Of a stretch of 30,764 bases of DNA, positions 2,584 through 26,714 are shown one piece after another. The notes below the pieces were generated by a model that saw only the letters and a list, made by a program, of their open reading frames with translations, was not told where the DNA came from and did not search any database. How positions within the stretch are numbered: position 1 is the first letter of the stretch; each line of letters begins with the position of its first letter. A program made the position numbers and the translations under genes. This DNA comes from a virus: the IMG/VR virus record IMGVR_UViG_3300027797_000090, positions 1-30,764 of that record, one strand, 5' to 3'.

Positions 2584-3263
2584 AAGATAAACTCTATCAG
2601 TTGCTCGGAGTAACGCTTGATGTCCTCAGCGTTGCGTAGGTGTGGGTTCTTACGAACCAGGGTGGAGACGCTTCTTTTCTTCACAAGGTAGTCTGTGAGA
2701 AAGGCTTCGTCGGCTAGTTCAAGGTCCGTGATCTTGTGCAGGAGCTCGTTATGCGAGACCATCAGATCCTCCATACTGAGCTCAGACTCGTACTTCGGCT
2801 CCACGATGTTAGAGTACTCCGTGATCTGCGAGAAACTCATGGCAAAAGCCTGGCGAACCGCCCGGACTTTTTTCACTGAGATCTGGATCTTCTCCGCGAT
2901 AGTGTCATCGGTGACGTCTGGATCGGCGATGAGGTACTTGCGAATCTTCAGGTAGAGGTCGGAGTACGAGCGGGGAATCTTAACCAGGCGACTGTTATCG
3001 CGGAGGTAGTTAAGCATATGAAACTGCAGGCATCTATTCACCCAAGTGGAGAAGTTAGCGCCCTTACTCTGGTCCCACGAATCGTAGATACGTACAATAT
3101 ACTCCAGCGCAGCGTCCCTAAGCTCCTCGTAAGGCAACCCTGTAAAACTGGAGATCTTCCTAGCTGCCTGATTGGCCTTCCACATCTGAGAGATGATCAG
3201 GCGGTCTCGCTCGGTCTCCCTAATCGAAGCGCGACGCGGATTTGCGGTAAAGTTTACGTTCAT
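2511..3263 (-). CDS. Sigma-70 family RNA polymerase sigma factor, probably late (gp55-like)
   Basis: Residues ~45-100 match sigma region 2: an ELRDAALEYIVR helix, FSTWVNRCLQ, then LRDNSRLVKIPRS, the usual junction with region 3. Residues ~110-140 (DVTDDTIAEKI...KVRAVRQA) form a helix-turn-helix like region 3. Residues ~185-235 (FLTDYLVKKRSVSTLVRKN) look like a shortened region 4. The 250-residue length exceeds T4 gp55 (185) and is closer to a compact sigma-70. Sigma factors direct host core RNA polymerase to promoters, and in T4-type phages the gp55 member recognises TATAAATA. An exact copy of that motif lies at 12657-12664 in front of the baseplate operon, which supports a late-gene role. 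The start overlaps the thioredoxin stop by one base (TAATG), implying translational coupling. Confidence 0.8.
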   Translation of the reverse strand: MNVNFTANPRRASIRETERDRLIISQMWKANQAARKISSFTGLPYEELRDAALEYIVRIYDSWDQSKGANFSTWVNRCLQFHMLNYLRDNSRLVKIPRSYSDLYLKIRKYLIADPDVTDDTIAEKIQISVKKVRAVRQAFAMSFSQITEYSNIVEPKYESELSMEDLMVSHNELLHKITDLELADEAFLTDYLVKKRSVSTLVRKNPHLRNAEDIKRYSEQLIEFILCDAQYPSKELPTPKAASKKSGVK

Positions 3264-3580
3264 TAGTTAGATTTCTCTATGGATCCGATGATGAAGTCCT
3301 TGAGTTGGGTCTTGGCGAGAATCCCGTCGGTATTTATGCCTAGTAGCTCCGCCTCGCTGTCAAACACGGCAAAGTTCGGCGTCCCATCACACTCGATCTG
3401 GTCACAGAACACCCACTCATCGTCGGTAACATCCCACTCCCCGAACCCGATCGTGTAGTGCGGGTACTCCTCGGCGAGTTCGTTGGCCGTCTCCGCCCAG
3501 ACGGGTTTCATAGCGTTGCAAGCAACGCACCCAGGCTGGTGAAAAAAGACAACTTTGTATTTGAATTGTTGATCTGTCAT
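3263..3580 (-). CDS. Thioredoxin-like protein
   Basis: This is a compact 105-residue thioredoxin fold. The N-terminal strand (KVVFFHQP) leads to CVAC at residues 18-21, then the MKPVW helix, a central WDVTDD strand and GTPNF, whose Pro is the expected cis-proline. The dithiol motif is CVAC rather than the CGPC of host thioredoxins, so redox potential and partner choice may differ. The usual substrates of phage thioredoxins are ribonucleotide reductase and host proteins; here the RNR genes lie about 18 kb away. The gene is first in a three-gene transcript (thioredoxin, sigma, DUF3223-like) behind an extended -10 promoter. An AAGGAT ribosome-binding site lies 11 nt before the ATG. Confidence 0.85.
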   Translation of the reverse strand: MTDQQFKYKVVFFHQPGCVACNAMKPVWAETANELAEEYPHYTIGFGEWDVTDDEWVFCDQIECDGTPNFAVFDSEAELLGINTDGILAKTQLKDFIIGSIEKSN

Positions 3581-21015: not shown

Positions 21016-21753
21016 GTGCAGAACGTCCTGCTGATCTCCGACATCCACTCCAGAGACGATGCCCTCGACCGGCTCGTGGACAAGCTCTCGGGAGCGATAA
21101 GCTCCGGAGCCCACCTAGTCTTTCTAGGAGATTTGTCAGATTGCCGGGATAAACTGTACAGGCCGAAGTGCTCCTTTCTTAAGGTATACAAGCTGGTTCG
21201 CCAGCTCTGCGATGAGGGTTACGCCACCCTCCTCCACTCCAACCATGCCCAGAACCTCACTGACATGTACCTGGAACGTAGAAATGTCCGCAAGGGCATA
21301 GTGGGATTTAAGGATACCATAGCAGAACTCGGGACTTTGGACGAACCTACTCGGGACGAGATGATCCTGTGGTTGGATTCGAGGCCTCTTACATACACTT
21401 ATACTTCCGAGAACGGAAAAACCTATAAAATCGCGCACGCCTTCTACCAGAAGGATATCGAGGCGAAATACTCCGAAGGAGGACTGTCTCCGGAGGAGGT
21501 CGATCTCACTCTCCGTGGCCGCAAATCCACGTGGCTGTGGCAGGGTCGGCAGATCACAAAGCGCACAGGGTTCTGGCGTAACCCCCAACGCTGGGGAGCC
21601 ACGGGGTCGGACGTCCTGTGCTCCGGCCACTGGGCCCAAGTAATAACAGAACCTAACTGCGTAGTCAACGATCCTGGTGGCAATGCCACCGACGGAACCC
21701 TAGGCGTATTTGACTGTAACAAACACCAACTCACCGTATACGAGAACAGATGA
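21016..21753 (+). CDS. Calcineurin-like metallophosphoesterase
   Basis: This is a two-metal phosphoesterase of the PPP/calcineurin-like superfamily. The visible motifs are SDIH (Asp9, His11), LGDLSD (Asp39), SNHAQN (Asn76-His77), AHAF (His141) and SGHW (His205), in the canonical order. The third motif normally reads GNHD/E but here is SNHAQN, lacking the usual Gly and acid. Together with an insertion of about 60 residues between motifs 3 and 4, this suggests a divergent substrate. Candidates are phosphoprotein, 2',3'-cyclic phosphate or nucleotide hydrolysis; the sequence does not decide. It starts with GTG and overlaps nrdB by 4 nt (ATGA), so it is translationally coupled to RNR and may act in nucleotide metabolism or in switching host signalling. 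Confidence 0.8.
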   Translation: MQNVLLISDIHSRDDALDRLVDKLSGAISSGAHLVFLGDLSDCRDKLYRPKCSFLKVYKLVRQLCDEGYATLLHSNHAQNLTDMYLERRNVRKGIVGFKDTIAELGTLDEPTRDEMILWLDSRPLTYTYTSENGKTYKIAHAFYQKDIEAKYSEGGLSPEEVDLTLRGRKSTWLWQGRQITKRTGFWRNPQRWGATGSDVLCSGHWAQVITEPNCVVNDPGGNATDGTLGVFDCNKHQLTVYENR

Positions 21754-22757
21754 GCAGCATTCTAGAGCACAACAGGATGGTCTTTAAGAAGGACACGGGG
21801 TTCGATTTCCCCGAGTTCTACGACTACTACGAGAACACCGTGGCGTCAGTTTGGAGGCACCAGGAGGTGGCTATGGAGGGAGATCTGAGAGACTGGCAGT
21901 TTAACTCAACACCCGACGAAAGAGCGGTTATAGCCGGGATTCTAAAGGGCTTTGTGAGTGCTGAGCTCGGCATCGGCTGTTACTGGGGGAACGAGGTTTG
22001 CCGGATTTTCCCCAAGCCGGAGATCCAAGCCATGGCCCGCGCGTTCTCGTTCTTTGAGACCATCCACGCCGCGGCGTACTCCTACCTCAATGACGTCCTA
22101 GGGCTTAAGGAGTACGAGGAGTTCATCAACGATCCTATCGCCTGCTCCAAGATCGATTCCTTCTTCCAGGAGTACGAGGATAAGGTGTCACTGGCCGTGT
22201 TCTCGGGCGCTGGTGAGGGCGTGTCGTTGTTCAGCTCCTTCGCCGTGCTACTGAGCTTCAACAAGGATGGCCGTTATAAGGGCCTCGCGCAGATCATCTC
22301 GTGGTCCGCTATCGACGAGCAGACTCACTCGGAGGCCGGGTGCGCGCTCTTCCGCCGGTTGGTTGACGAGACGGGGCTTACTAAATCCGAGGAGCAGTCG
22401 ATCTACGAGGGCTTCCACCTTGTGGTGGGTAAGGAGTTCGCTTTCATCGACCACATCTTTAACTCCGCGAGTATCTCCTCGATTGTTGCGGACGAGTTGA
22501 AAGCTTACATAACCAACCGCGCCAACGAACGGCTACTTACTCTCGGGCTAGAGCAGATATTCCATCTCTCCACCGAGGAAATTTCAAAAGCCAAGTCTGT
22601 CAGCGCCTGGTTCGATCCGATGATTAGAGGAGCGAGCAGTTCGGATTTCTTTGCCCAGAGCAAATCCGGCGACAATTACGTTGCAAAGCCCACTCAGGAT
22701 TACATGAGTGTCGATCTTACTTCACTCGATCTGGAGTCCTGTCTCTCATACACCTAA
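21750..22757 (+). CDS. nrdB: Class I ribonucleotide reductase beta subunit
   Basis: NrdB generates the radical for reduction of NDPs to dNDPs by NrdA. By alignment of spacing to E. coli NrdB, the di-iron ligands are Glu72 (in SAELGIG), Glu103 and His106 (in FFETIH), Glu156 (in GAGEGVSLF), and Glu190 and His193 (in AIDEQTH). The radical Tyr is Tyr110, four residues after His106. The first ligand is Glu where E. coli has Asp84, while the tyrosine is kept. The 335-residue length is slightly short for the family. The last residues (DLTSLDLESCLSY) form the flexible NrdA-binding tail. It is coupled by a 4-nt overlap to the metallophosphoesterase and separated from nrdA by two small genes and an HNH endonuclease. 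Confidence 0.95.
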   Translation: MSSILEHNRMVFKKDTGFDFPEFYDYYENTVASVWRHQEVAMEGDLRDWQFNSTPDERAVIAGILKGFVSAELGIGCYWGNEVCRIFPKPEIQAMARAFSFFETIHAAAYSYLNDVLGLKEYEEFINDPIACSKIDSFFQEYEDKVSLAVFSGAGEGVSLFSSFAVLLSFNKDGRYKGLAQIISWSAIDEQTHSEAGCALFRRLVDETGLTKSEEQSIYEGFHLVVGKEFAFIDHIFNSASISSIVADELKAYITNRANERLLTLGLEQIFHLSTEEISKAKSVSAWFDPMIRGASSSDFFAQSKSGDNYVAKPTQDYMSVDLTSLDLESCLSYT

Positions 22758-22934: not shown

Positions 22935-23115
22935 CAGAAACGAGCAGCTTATGATCGCTGATCACGGCACCACGTGCTTGATCACAGACGTCAGAGCCGA
23001 CCTGTATATGAGCAGGGCGAGAAAGAGAAAGAGCGTCCCACCCACCGACCGGTTCTCAAGGCCCTGCGGTGGACCCGGCGGATTCGACGATTTCGTGGAA
23101 CGCTGGCATGAATGA
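22912..23115 (+). CDS. Small hypothetical protein (67 residues)
   Basis: This protein is not recognised. It is basic in the middle (YMSRARKRKSVPP) and Gly/Pro-rich near the end (RPCGGPGGFDDFVERWHE). It overlaps the preceding small gene by 23 nt and the HNH gene by 8 nt, consistent with a cotranscribed run from nrdB. An AAGAAAG sequence just before the ATG may serve as the ribosome-binding site. Confidence 0.5.
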   Translation: MAIKPNPDRNEQLMIADHGTTCLITDVRADLYMSRARKRKSVPPTDRFSRPCGGPGGFDDFVERWHE

Positions 23116-23524
23116 CTTCACAAAGCCCGATGGCTGGAGGGTTAAAGGCCGGGATCAGGGAGGACGTGACTACTCCGACTCGGGTCCGCGCTGGAAGCAG
23201 TGGAAGGACTCCCCCTACGAGGTGAGTAGTACGGGCCAGGTGCGCCGTAAGGGCGACACCGAGAACCGCAAGCCTCGCGATGATGATCGTAAGCACCAGA
23301 GAATGAACCTGACCTGGGATGGCAAACGCGAAGAACCGCCTCTCCACCAGATGGTGATGGAATTATTCGGCCCTCCAAAGCCCCAGGGAGAGCATATCGT
23401 AATCCTCCACAAGGACAACGACGGAACCAACAACTCCATCTCTAATCTGAAGTGGGGTACAAGGTCCCAGAACGTGCAGCAGGCTCACGACGATGGCCTG
23501 ATCAAACCCAAGAAAAACAAGTAG
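23108..23524 (+). CDS. HNH endonuclease with NUMOD4-like DNA-binding motif (putative homing endonuclease)
   Basis: From the ATG at 23108 the product has 138 residues. An N-terminal W..SPYEVSSTGQVRRKG motif matches the NUMOD4 module found in phage homing endonucleases. It is followed by LHQMVMELFGPPKPQGEHIVILHKDNDGTNNSISNLKWGTRSQNVQQA, the HNH core (H..N....N..W.T...N). Such enzymes nick or cut DNA at allelic sites and spread themselves. Insertion between nrdB and nrdA fits their known preference for RNR genes. An in-frame GTG at 23069 would extend the protein by 13 residues but lies inside the upstream gene, so the ATG is preferred. Confidence 0.85.
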   Translation: MNDFTKPDGWRVKGRDQGGRDYSDSGPRWKQWKDSPYEVSSTGQVRRKGDTENRKPRDDDRKHQRMNLTWDGKREEPPLHQMVMELFGPPKPQGEHIVILHKDNDGTNNSISNLKWGTRSQNVQQAHDDGLIKPKKNK

Positions 23525-23609: not shown

Positions 23610-25523
23610 ATGTCCGAGCTACAAGTCCCTGAGTGGATGTCCAAGGAAGCCATCAAAACCCTCTCGAAAGGCTACCTGTATCAGGGAGAGACTCCCAGAG
23701 GAATGTACGAGAGAGTGGCCAATCAAGCGGCCAAACTTCTCAACTATCCCGAGCTCTCGCCGGATATCTTCGAGATGCTGTGGAGAGGGTTCCTAGGACT
23801 CGCCACTCCCGTGGCCAGTAACTTCGGCACGTCACGTGGCCTTCCGATCTCGTGCTACTCAAACCATATCTCGGATTCCGTACCCTCCATCTACTCCCAC
23901 CTGAAGGAGTCCGCCGCTCTCTCGCAGTACGGCGGAGGTGTTGGCACCTACTTCGGGGACATTCGCCCCGCCGGTGCTCCCATCTCGTCTGGTGGTAAGA
24001 GCACCGGGGTGGTGCCTTGGATGAGGCAGTTTGACCAGTGCGCCTCCGTAGTCTCCCAGGGTGGTGTGAGACGCGGCAGTTTTGCCCTGTACATCCCAAT
24101 CGACCACCCAGATCTTCTGGAGATCCTACGCTCCAAGGACCACTCACAGGGCGATCCCAGAGGCTTCATCGACAGCAATATCGCCGTTACGGTGGCTGAT
24201 GAGTGGGTGGAGAGTATGCTCGCCGGTGACCTGGAGAAGAAAAAGATCTTCGGCGAGGTGCTCAAGATGAGGCTCGTGTCAGGGTCTCCGTACATCATCT
24301 TCATCGACAACGCCAACCGCGCCAATCCGGATTGCTACGTTCAGCGCGGGCTGAGTGTCAAGCTAAGCAATCTCTGCTCCGAGATCTTCCTTCACACCGA
24401 CGAGAACCATACTTTCGTCTGCGTTCTCTCATCTCTCAATCTGTCCCGCTGGGATGAGTGGAAGGACTGGACAGGACCCGCCACGGGCAAATCGGCTCCC
24501 GAGCTGGCCGTGTACCTCCTAGACGCGGTGGTGGAGGAGTTCTGCCACAAGGCCGAGCGTATCACCTCCATGGGAAGAGCGGTGAGATTCGCACGCAAAT
24601 CCAGGGCTCTAGGCCTGGGCACAATGGGCGAGCATGCTCTCTACCAGTCCAAGCACCTCCCGTTCGCCTCGGATGGCGCCAGAGCGCTGAACACCGAGAC
24701 TCACAGATTTATCAAGGAGAAGGCACTAAAGGCCTCCCGTGACATGGCCGCCACCTACGGTGAGCCTGAGTGGTGCCAGGGCACCGGCCTACGCCACACG
24801 CACCTCATGGCCATCGCCCCCACCAAATCCAACTCAGTCATCTGCGGAGCTGGGAGCGAAGGCATCGAGCCCATCGACGCCAACTACTACGTTGCCAAGC
24901 AGGCCAAGGGGACATTTGTTCGCAAGAACAGGTACCTGGTAGAGCATCTCGACCGCATCGGCCGTAATACCGACGAGACGTGGGAGTCGATCCTCGAGTT
25001 CAGGGGATCGGTACAGCATCTCGACTTTCTCGACGACTACTCCAAGGAGGTGTTCAAGACGGCCCGGGAGATTGACCAGTTCGAGATCATCCGCCAGGCA
25101 TCGGACCGCCAGAAGTTTGTCTGCCAGGGCCAGTCAATCAACCTCTTTCCAGATCCTGAAAGCACACCGGAGTACCTGTTCAAGCTTCACTTAAGCGCTT
25201 GGAAAGCGGGCCTGAAGTCCCTCTACTATCTCAAGAGCCAGTCCCTCCTCGTCAAGAAGAAAAAGCCAGGGCAGCAGAAAGTGGCCAAAATCGTCACTAA
25301 GACGGACTGCCCCTACTGCTCCATGGCCAAGTCGTTGCTTCGCAGCCAGGGTTGGACAATCAACGAGGTGGATAGGGCAGACGTTCCCGACTCCGAGTGG
25401 GAGTGGAAGACAGTGCCCCAGATCTGGCTTAATGACCGCTATGTCGGGGGGTATAAGCACCTCTCCGAAATGCTTGGGAGTGGTGAGAAAACTTACGGGG
25501 AATGCGCGGCCTGCGAAGGTTGA
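23610..25523 (+). CDS. nrdA: Class I ribonucleotide reductase alpha subunit with inserted glutaredoxin domain
   Basis: This is the catalytic subunit that reduces NDPs. Active-site residues are visible: Cys82 (ISCY), Asn254, Cys256 and Glu258 (SNLCSEI), Cys271 (CVLSSLNL) and the radical-transfer pair Tyr539-Tyr540 (KSLYYL). There is no N-terminal ATP cone, so dATP-type activity control is probably absent. After residue ~545 a Lys-rich linker leads to a complete glutaredoxin domain (~557-622): CPYC at 567-570, TVPQIW at 601-606 with the cis-Pro, and GGY at 613-615. The protein then ends in ECAACEG, with Cys632 and Cys635 as the swinging redox tail of NrdA. The glutaredoxin thus lies between barrel and tail and could re-reduce the tail within the same chain. 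Two tandem promoters precede the gene. It is shorter than E. coli NrdA (761) despite the added domain. Confidence 0.95.
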   Translation: MSELQVPEWMSKEAIKTLSKGYLYQGETPRGMYERVANQAAKLLNYPELSPDIFEMLWRGFLGLATPVASNFGTSRGLPISCYSNHISDSVPSIYSHLKESAALSQYGGGVGTYFGDIRPAGAPISSGGKSTGVVPWMRQFDQCASVVSQGGVRRGSFALYIPIDHPDLLEILRSKDHSQGDPRGFIDSNIAVTVADEWVESMLAGDLEKKKIFGEVLKMRLVSGSPYIIFIDNANRANPDCYVQRGLSVKLSNLCSEIFLHTDENHTFVCVLSSLNLSRWDEWKDWTGPATGKSAPELAVYLLDAVVEEFCHKAERITSMGRAVRFARKSRALGLGTMGEHALYQSKHLPFASDGARALNTETHRFIKEKALKASRDMAATYGEPEWCQGTGLRHTHLMAIAPTKSNSVICGAGSEGIEPIDANYYVAKQAKGTFVRKNRYLVEHLDRIGRNTDETWESILEFRGSVQHLDFLDDYSKEVFKTAREIDQFEIIRQASDRQKFVCQGQSINLFPDPESTPEYLFKLHLSAWKAGLKSLYYLKSQSLLVKKKKPGQQKVAKIVTKTDCPYCSMAKSLLRSQGWTINEVDRADVPDSEWEWKTVPQIWLNDRYVGGYKHLSEMLGSGEKTYGECAACEG

Positions 25524-26085: not shown

Positions 26086-26263
26086 AGCCCCTAAACAGCG
26101 ACTCGTCTATAGTATAGACGAGGAAAGCAGATGCGAAAACTGCACCGGACGAGGCTTTCTAATCGTCCAGCACACGTCCCCAGACGGGTACGTAGAACCT
26201 AACGAAGTACAGGAATGTGGTATCTGCGATGGCACAGGCAAACGCAACCCGGATAAAAGTTAA
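26078..26263 (+). CDS. Small zinc-finger protein with DnaJ-type CxxCxGxG motifs (61 residues)
   Basis: The product reads MAKAPKQRLVYSIDEESR, followed by CENCTGRGF and, 27 residues later, CGICDGTGK. Two CxxCxGxG-type knuckles make one four-cysteine zinc site, like half of the DnaJ cysteine-rich region. No J domain is present. Stand-alone copies occur in phages and may act as small chaperone-like or nucleic-acid-binding proteins. It overlaps the dUTPase-like gene by 8 nt at its start and the following HNH gene by 35 nt, so it belongs to the same transcript. Confidence 0.65.
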   Translation: MAKAPKQRLVYSIDEESRCENCTGRGFLIVQHTSPDGYVEPNEVQECGICDGTGKRNPDKS

Positions 26264-26714
26264 CGCCCAAGTACTGGTGCTTAACGCATCGTACGAGCCG
26301 ATTCACATCACGTCGTGGAAGAGGGCTATCGTCCTCCTGCTCAAGGAGAAAGCGGCGATCATCTCCGAAAAAGTTATAAGGCTCGTGGAGTTTGTGAGGT
26401 TGCCCCTCTCCAAAATGCGCATCTCGAAGCCGTCGAGGGCGATGATATATGCGAGGGATCAGAGCAAGTGCCAGTACTGCGGTTCGACGAGGAAACTTAC
26501 CATCGACCACGTTATTCCTAGAAGCAGAGGTGGTCTTGATACCTGGGACAACATGGTGATCGCCTGTAGCAAGTGCAACACCTTTAAGGGCGATAAACTT
26601 CTGGAGAGCACGGGCATGAGGCTTCTTCGCAAGCCTGGTGCCCCCGCCAACAAGATCCTGTTCGCTGTTACGCAGGCCCAAGATCCTGAGTGGCAGCAAT
26701 ACAACTACTGCTAA
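26229..26714 (+). CDS. HNH endonuclease of a cyanobacterial type
   Basis: The N-terminal VLVLNASYEPIHITSWKRAIVLLLKEKAAI and the C-terminal CQYCG...LTIDHVIPRSRGGLDTWDNMVIACSKCNTFKG define a zinc-bound HNH nuclease (two CxxC pairs, DH, N). This full-length two-part architecture is common among cyanobacterial chromosomal HNH proteins, so host origin is plausible (inference). The ATG at 26229 is preferred to the in-frame GTG at 26217. Either start lies within the zinc-finger gene. A free-standing nuclease of this kind may be a selfish element or help in DNA processing; no intron or intein is visible around it. Confidence 0.85.
   Translation: MAQANATRIKVNAQVLVLNASYEPIHITSWKRAIVLLLKEKAAIISEKVIRLVEFVRLPLSKMRISKPSRAMIYARDQSKCQYCGSTRKLTIDHVIPRSRGGLDTWDNMVIACSKCNTFKGDKLLESTGMRLLRKPGAPANKILFAVTQAQDPEWQQYNYC

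Follow-up and report, generated by a model that had tools for sequence, protein, structure and literature searches.

We analysed a stretch of viral DNA of 30,764 nucleotides, referred to here as the window, which makes up a 30.8-kb record of a cyanophage-like virus. Within it a phosphatase gene, nrdB, an HNH gene, nrdA, another HNH gene and a DNA methylase gene follow one another, in an order that resembles that of Cyanophage S-TIM54. The nrdA gene (23610-25523, plus strand) is a single uninterrupted open reading frame starting with ATG, and it encodes a 637-residue fusion of NrdA, the large subunit of ribonucleotide reductase (RNR), with a glutaredoxin (Grx). The RNR barrel (PF02867, E 1.6e-99) ends at residue 541 and is followed by a disordered linker, a complete glutaredoxin (PF00462 at residues 561-612, E 1.7e-8, above the curated cut-off) and the terminal motif ECAACEG. 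In nucleotide coordinates, all on the plus strand, the linker (residues 545-556) occupies 25242-25277, the Grx domain (residues 557-622, with CPYC at 567-570, TVPQ at 601-604 and GG at 613-614) occupies 25278-25475, and the C-terminal tail (residues 623-637, with ECAACEG at 631-637 and the redox CxxC at 632-635) occupies 25476-25520. A sequence-only reading had drawn attention to 25270-25523, which comprises the end of the linker, the Grx domain, the tail and the stop codon. The domain order that it described, with an intact dithiol Grx and an intact terminal CxxC, is borne out by the open reading frame, the Pfam matches and the motifs, and its residue numbers for CPYC, ECAACEG and the tyrosine pair Y539-Y540 are correct. 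HNH endonuclease genes flank nrdA on both sides (23069-23524 and 26217-26714, both on the plus strand), as they also do in S-TIM54.

The barrel carries the residues expected of a catalytic subunit. The active-site cysteines C82 (23853-23855) and C271 (24420-24422), the thiyl-radical cysteine C256 (24375-24377) and the tyrosine pair that closes the barrel, Y539-Y540 (25224-25229), all encoded on the plus strand, are invariant among aligned relatives. We take C82, C256 and C271 to correspond to E. coli C225, C439 and C462, respectively, and the tyrosine pair to be the radical-transfer tyrosines. The best sequence match in the PDB is 6dqw, the class Id alpha subunit of Flavobacterium johnsoniae (E 8e-143), and an AlphaFold2 model of the window protein matches this structure with Z 52.6 and an rmsd of 1.3 A over 503 residues. 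Both share a barrel free of the ATP-cone; the Flavobacterium protein differs in having no Grx, and the fold match stops at residue 544 of the window protein. With no N-terminal ATP-cone, with class Id proteins as its nearest solved relatives, and with the three active-site cysteines, the tyrosine pair and the C-terminal CxxC all present, the window NrdA is the large subunit of a class I RNR, of the NrdAi or class Id-like kind. The radical-generating partner subunit is encoded by nrdB (21750-22757, plus strand), whose product is predicted to be class Id/NrdBi-like from its matches to class Id NrdB sequences; its PDB sequence matches include 6cwo, 6sf4 and 5olk. The RNR of the cyanophage S-TIM5 has likewise been placed in subclass Id (PMC6370689).

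The structure of the fusion was predicted with AlphaFold2 from 40 fused sequences. Unfused sequences were left out of the prediction and of the tail counts given below because MAFFT misplaced their tail cysteines onto the CPYC of the Grx domain. The whole-protein model has a mean pLDDT of 88 and a pTM of 0.82, with a confident barrel and a confident Grx domain, and pLDDT falls below 50 at residues 545-555 and 625-637. The Grx domain therefore appears to be tethered by two flexible segments, both predicted to be disordered, and the linker is usually also the fastest-changing part of the protein in comparisons with relatives. Modelled alone, the Grx domain has a mean pLDDT of 77 and matches E. 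coli Grx3 (1fov) with Z 10.2 and an rmsd of 2.2 A over 70 residues at 36% identity. Its best structural match, the hybrid Prx5 of Haemophilus influenzae (1nm3, Z 10.7), is tied with other glutaredoxins, namely Francisella Grx1 and E. coli Grx3 (both 10.2). We understand hybrid Prx5 to be a Grx fused to the enzyme that it reduces, the client there being a peroxiredoxin, presumably with no separate swinging CxxC arm. Among the NCBIfam redoxin models it matches glutaredoxin 3 best, at a score below the full-length cut-off, and NrdH-type redoxins, to which the domain may still be akin, are absent among the structural matches listed for it. Judged by its fold, its CP(Y/W)C motif, its TVP cis-proline loop and its GG motif, the domain is a dithiol Grx of the Grx3/GrxC type, and the presence of glutathione-site residues predicts that it uses glutathione (GSH).

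A search for the same insertion in other NrdA proteins found it in isolated cyanophages, S-TIM5/S-TIM54 and S-CBWM1, and in dozens of IMG/VR contigs (group A). Identity to the window protein over essentially the full length, Grx and tail included, is 70% for S-TIM5/S-TIM54 and 54% for Synechococcus phage S-CBWM1. Like the window, S-TIM54 and S-CBWM1 combine a barrel, an inserted Grx and a terminal CxxC with an nrdB gene upstream of nrdA, and the proteins of these phages are annotated merely as NrdA or as RNR alpha subunit. The photosystem gene psbA was found in 11 records of the window's clade, which identifies those phages as cyanophages. The fused layout is neither an artefact nor unique to the window. 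A misassembly or sequencing error that joined two genes, for which we found nothing in favour, has a negligible chance of explaining it and is ruled out, because isolate genomes and many contigs from separate metagenomes show the same frame and order. A chance match or a frameshift is ruled out by the Pfam matches, the independent contigs and the action of purifying selection on the Grx domain, as indicated by dN/dS values of 0.06-0.15 in the only comparisons whose synonymous sites were unsaturated; here too the linker was usually the most changeable part.

Our first survey yielded 109 complete NrdA open reading frames, 78 fused and 31 plain, with some contigs entered twice. The 78 fused frames contain 56 distinct tails, every one of which (56/56) has CP(Y/W/F)C, TVPQ and a terminal CxxC. 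Among 40 aligned fused NrdA proteins, C567, P568, C570, K574, T601-Q604, G613, G614, C632 and C635 are invariant (40/40). The tail CxxC lies 16-27 residues beyond the GGY motif, a segment that includes helix 3, and in the window protein about 10 residues separate the end of the Grx domain from the first tail cysteine.

The same layout is also present in a second, distant set of NrdA proteins (group B). Phage C48C1 shows this domain order as well, and its NrdA shares just about 35% identity with that of the window. An IMG/VR scan with the C48C1 Grx and tail as the query returned 530 related stretches. Among the best 80 of these 530, 75 are fused and carry the CxxC by a strict pattern, and one of the remaining five, L262, is likewise fused and has SVPQ. 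Delftia phage PhiW-14 and the Acinetobacter phages nACB2 and SH-Ab 15599 also possess the fused layout. In two Acinetobacter phage fusions (L289 and L290) CPNC replaces CPYC and SVPQ replaces TVPQ, and the redoxin properties of these fusions may differ from those of the CPYC type. Grx domains are 55-58% identical within group B, and only 36-42% identical to the Grx of the window. Grx helix 2 is nearly absent in the window's clade, where CPxC and TVPQ are 32-37 residues apart, as against 39-40 in group B; this near-loss could alter activity. The unfused relatives Melnitz and AD45, whose tails terminate in EECVACQG and DTCLACEG, respectively, show a comparable linker motif next to the barrel, and the fused tails of group B retain this motif between barrel and insert. 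The similar linker motif and CxxC end in the unfused proteins argue that the Grx was inserted within a pre-existing flexible tail.

In order to place the fusions relative to one another we built trees from the barrel only, with the columns of the insert excluded. A branch (100*) sets off the fused clade of the window, and the fusions of group B fall in a distant clade among unfused phages. A single clade of all fused NrdA proteins, specified before tree building, was rejected, being 291 log units worse with a p-AU of 1e-63 on a quick tree in which long branches are present. An enlarged tree requires at least four changes of the fused state. From these barrel phylogenies we conclude that the layout arose at least twice, once in group A and once in group B. 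A single ancient gain followed by many losses is conceivable but needs more changes on the tree. Within group B, where the Grx domains are 55-58% identical as noted, either one gain followed by losses or transfer of the domain is possible. A contig scan that relied on short exact motifs found no cellular counterpart of the complete Grx-plus-tail query; its hits were either free Grx genes or plain ends of NrdA, and a cellular source may still exist. Among sister phages, L097 has a Grx in its NrdA tail, whereas in L104, L110 and L117-L123 the tail is plain and a different Grx gene, a free one, directly follows nrdA, which suggests that a fused copy was replaced by a free one or the reverse.

In class I RNR the C-terminal cysteine pair of NrdA re-reduces the active site, and a redoxin recharges the pair (PMC6187632). 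We consider it highly likely that the fused Grx, which sits on the redox arm itself, serves as NrdA's dedicated reductant and recharges the C-terminal cysteine pair with electrons from GSH; the electron path, the dependence on GSH and the benefit to the phage are what we infer. Turnover would oxidise the active-site pair C82/C271, which the terminal pair C632/C635 would reduce, becoming oxidised in turn. The fused Grx would then reduce C632/C635, with C567 as the nucleophile and C570 as the resolving cysteine, acting within the same chain or on the partner chain of the alpha2 dimer. Two host glutathiones would re-reduce the Grx. Even if the relay were independent of host Grx levels, as the sequence-only reading supposed, it would still draw on glutathione and glutathione reductase of the host.

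A flexibly linked Grx might instead reach the barrel and reduce the active site directly, with no second relay, leaving the terminal CxxC as a mere leftover. A leftover should decay, yet the CxxC is kept in all 56 of the distinct fused tails and across at least two lineages of separate origin, and we give this alternative very little credence. A folded domain is, moreover, unlikely to fit into the narrow NrdA active site. The invariable retention of the CxxC favours the relay over direct reduction. Within the relay reading itself, the Grx may reduce the tail of the other alpha2 chain or of another NrdA, a variant that we entertain tentatively. The short segment of 16-27 residues between GGY and CxxC points in this direction, and relatives with a free Grx suggest that such delivery is workable; against this, both tethers are predicted to be flexible and delivery within one chain would also be allowed. 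With only about 10 residues between the Grx and the first tail cysteine, neither reduction within the chain nor reach of the active site is guaranteed.

The remaining redoxin genes of these phages bear on whether NrdA is the client at all. No second Grx was found in 39 of 40 fused phage records, many of which are fragments; the exception, G028, has extra ones. This single-Grx set includes S-TIM54, S-CBWM1, C48C1, PhiW-14, nACB2 and SH-Ab 15599, which were deposited as complete genomes. As most of these phages have no Grx besides the fused one, this domain could conceivably be a general glutaredoxin with its main clients elsewhere in the infected cell. We regard this as unlikely, because in at least two lineages the Grx was placed between barrel and tail while the CxxC kept its terminal position, which suggests that NrdA is the client, as does the barrel-side linker motif that group B fused tails share with unfused relatives. 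Relatives such as Atu_ph07, Phosso, SCTP-2, RcXuper and L110/L121, which are unfused, have a free Grx gene near nrdA. In Atu_ph07, Phosso and SCTP-2 a related NrdA is followed directly by the Grx gene; they differ from the window in that the Grx is a separate protein and the NrdA has its own short CxxC tail. For some unfused relatives no Grx was found anywhere in the record searched, which indicates that a phage Grx is not obligatory.

Counting against the main reading, a thioredoxin-like protein encoded by the same phage might serve the tail. This small thioredoxin-fold protein with a CVAC motif (3263-3580, minus strand; PF00085, E 8.5e-9) adjoins the terminase gene and is a possible alternative reductant, as judged from its sequence. 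Its family is also present in S-TIM54 and three IMG/VR relatives; it was not found in S-CBWM1 or G011, and the protein had no PHROG match. The relay from GSH through Grx and CxxC to the active site, as the sequence-only reading had proposed, stands as the best reading of these data, and it is strengthened by the cysteines invariant in all fused homologues, by the lack of another Grx in nearly all fused phages and by the second independent lineage.

Covalent joining of a Grx to a class I RNR subunit is already known. The Grx-NrdB fusion in Facklamia that the sequence-only reading gave as an example is confirmed by PMC6187632, according to which the Grx fused to NrdB in Facklamia ignava reduces RNR with GSH by a dithiol mechanism. 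In Facklamia ignava and Francisella (PMC6187632) the Grx is N-terminal on NrdB, whereas in the window it lies inside the redox arm of NrdA. PMC6187632 devotes a single sentence to Grx::NrdA fusions, reporting them from 'two viruses' and giving no particulars in its text; these are probably S-TIM5 and PhiW-14, since both have RefSeq records and this layout. PMC6370689 mentions a fused Grx for the beta subunit only. In the open-access literature we found no account of a Grx placed within the arm, of how widespread the fusion is or of its repeated origin. The existence of Grx::NrdA fusions is therefore already known, whereas their position in the arm, their wide occurrence and their repeated emergence appear undescribed in that literature.

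Because class I RNR usually has a disordered C-terminal arm, the way in which this arm travels between the active site and its external reductant is difficult to observe. When the reductant is part of the arm, as in this natural enzyme, the geometry is more limited, and the protein offers a ready construct for trapping arm states. On balance we lean towards the view that in phages a Grx came to be built into the swinging RNR arm repeatedly, on at least two occasions, and that a covalent relay from GSH through Grx and CxxC to the active site replaces a free phage Grx, giving a tethered system in which the elusive tail-reductant and tail-active-site states could be trapped. The hosts of S-TIM5 and other cyanophages have class II RNR (PMC6370689), and for this reason a phage class I enzyme may lack a matched host reductant. 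The fusion shows how a phage may feed electrons to a class I RNR in such hosts.

Relatives of the window NrdA also carry probable inteins at two different sites, each directly before a catalytic cysteine; the window copy has none. S-CBWM1 NrdA differs from it in having an intein before the thiyl-radical cysteine. Probable inteins lie directly before C256 in L002, L005, L027, L031, L043, L092 and L093, and directly before C82 in L059, L061, L062, L064 and L101.
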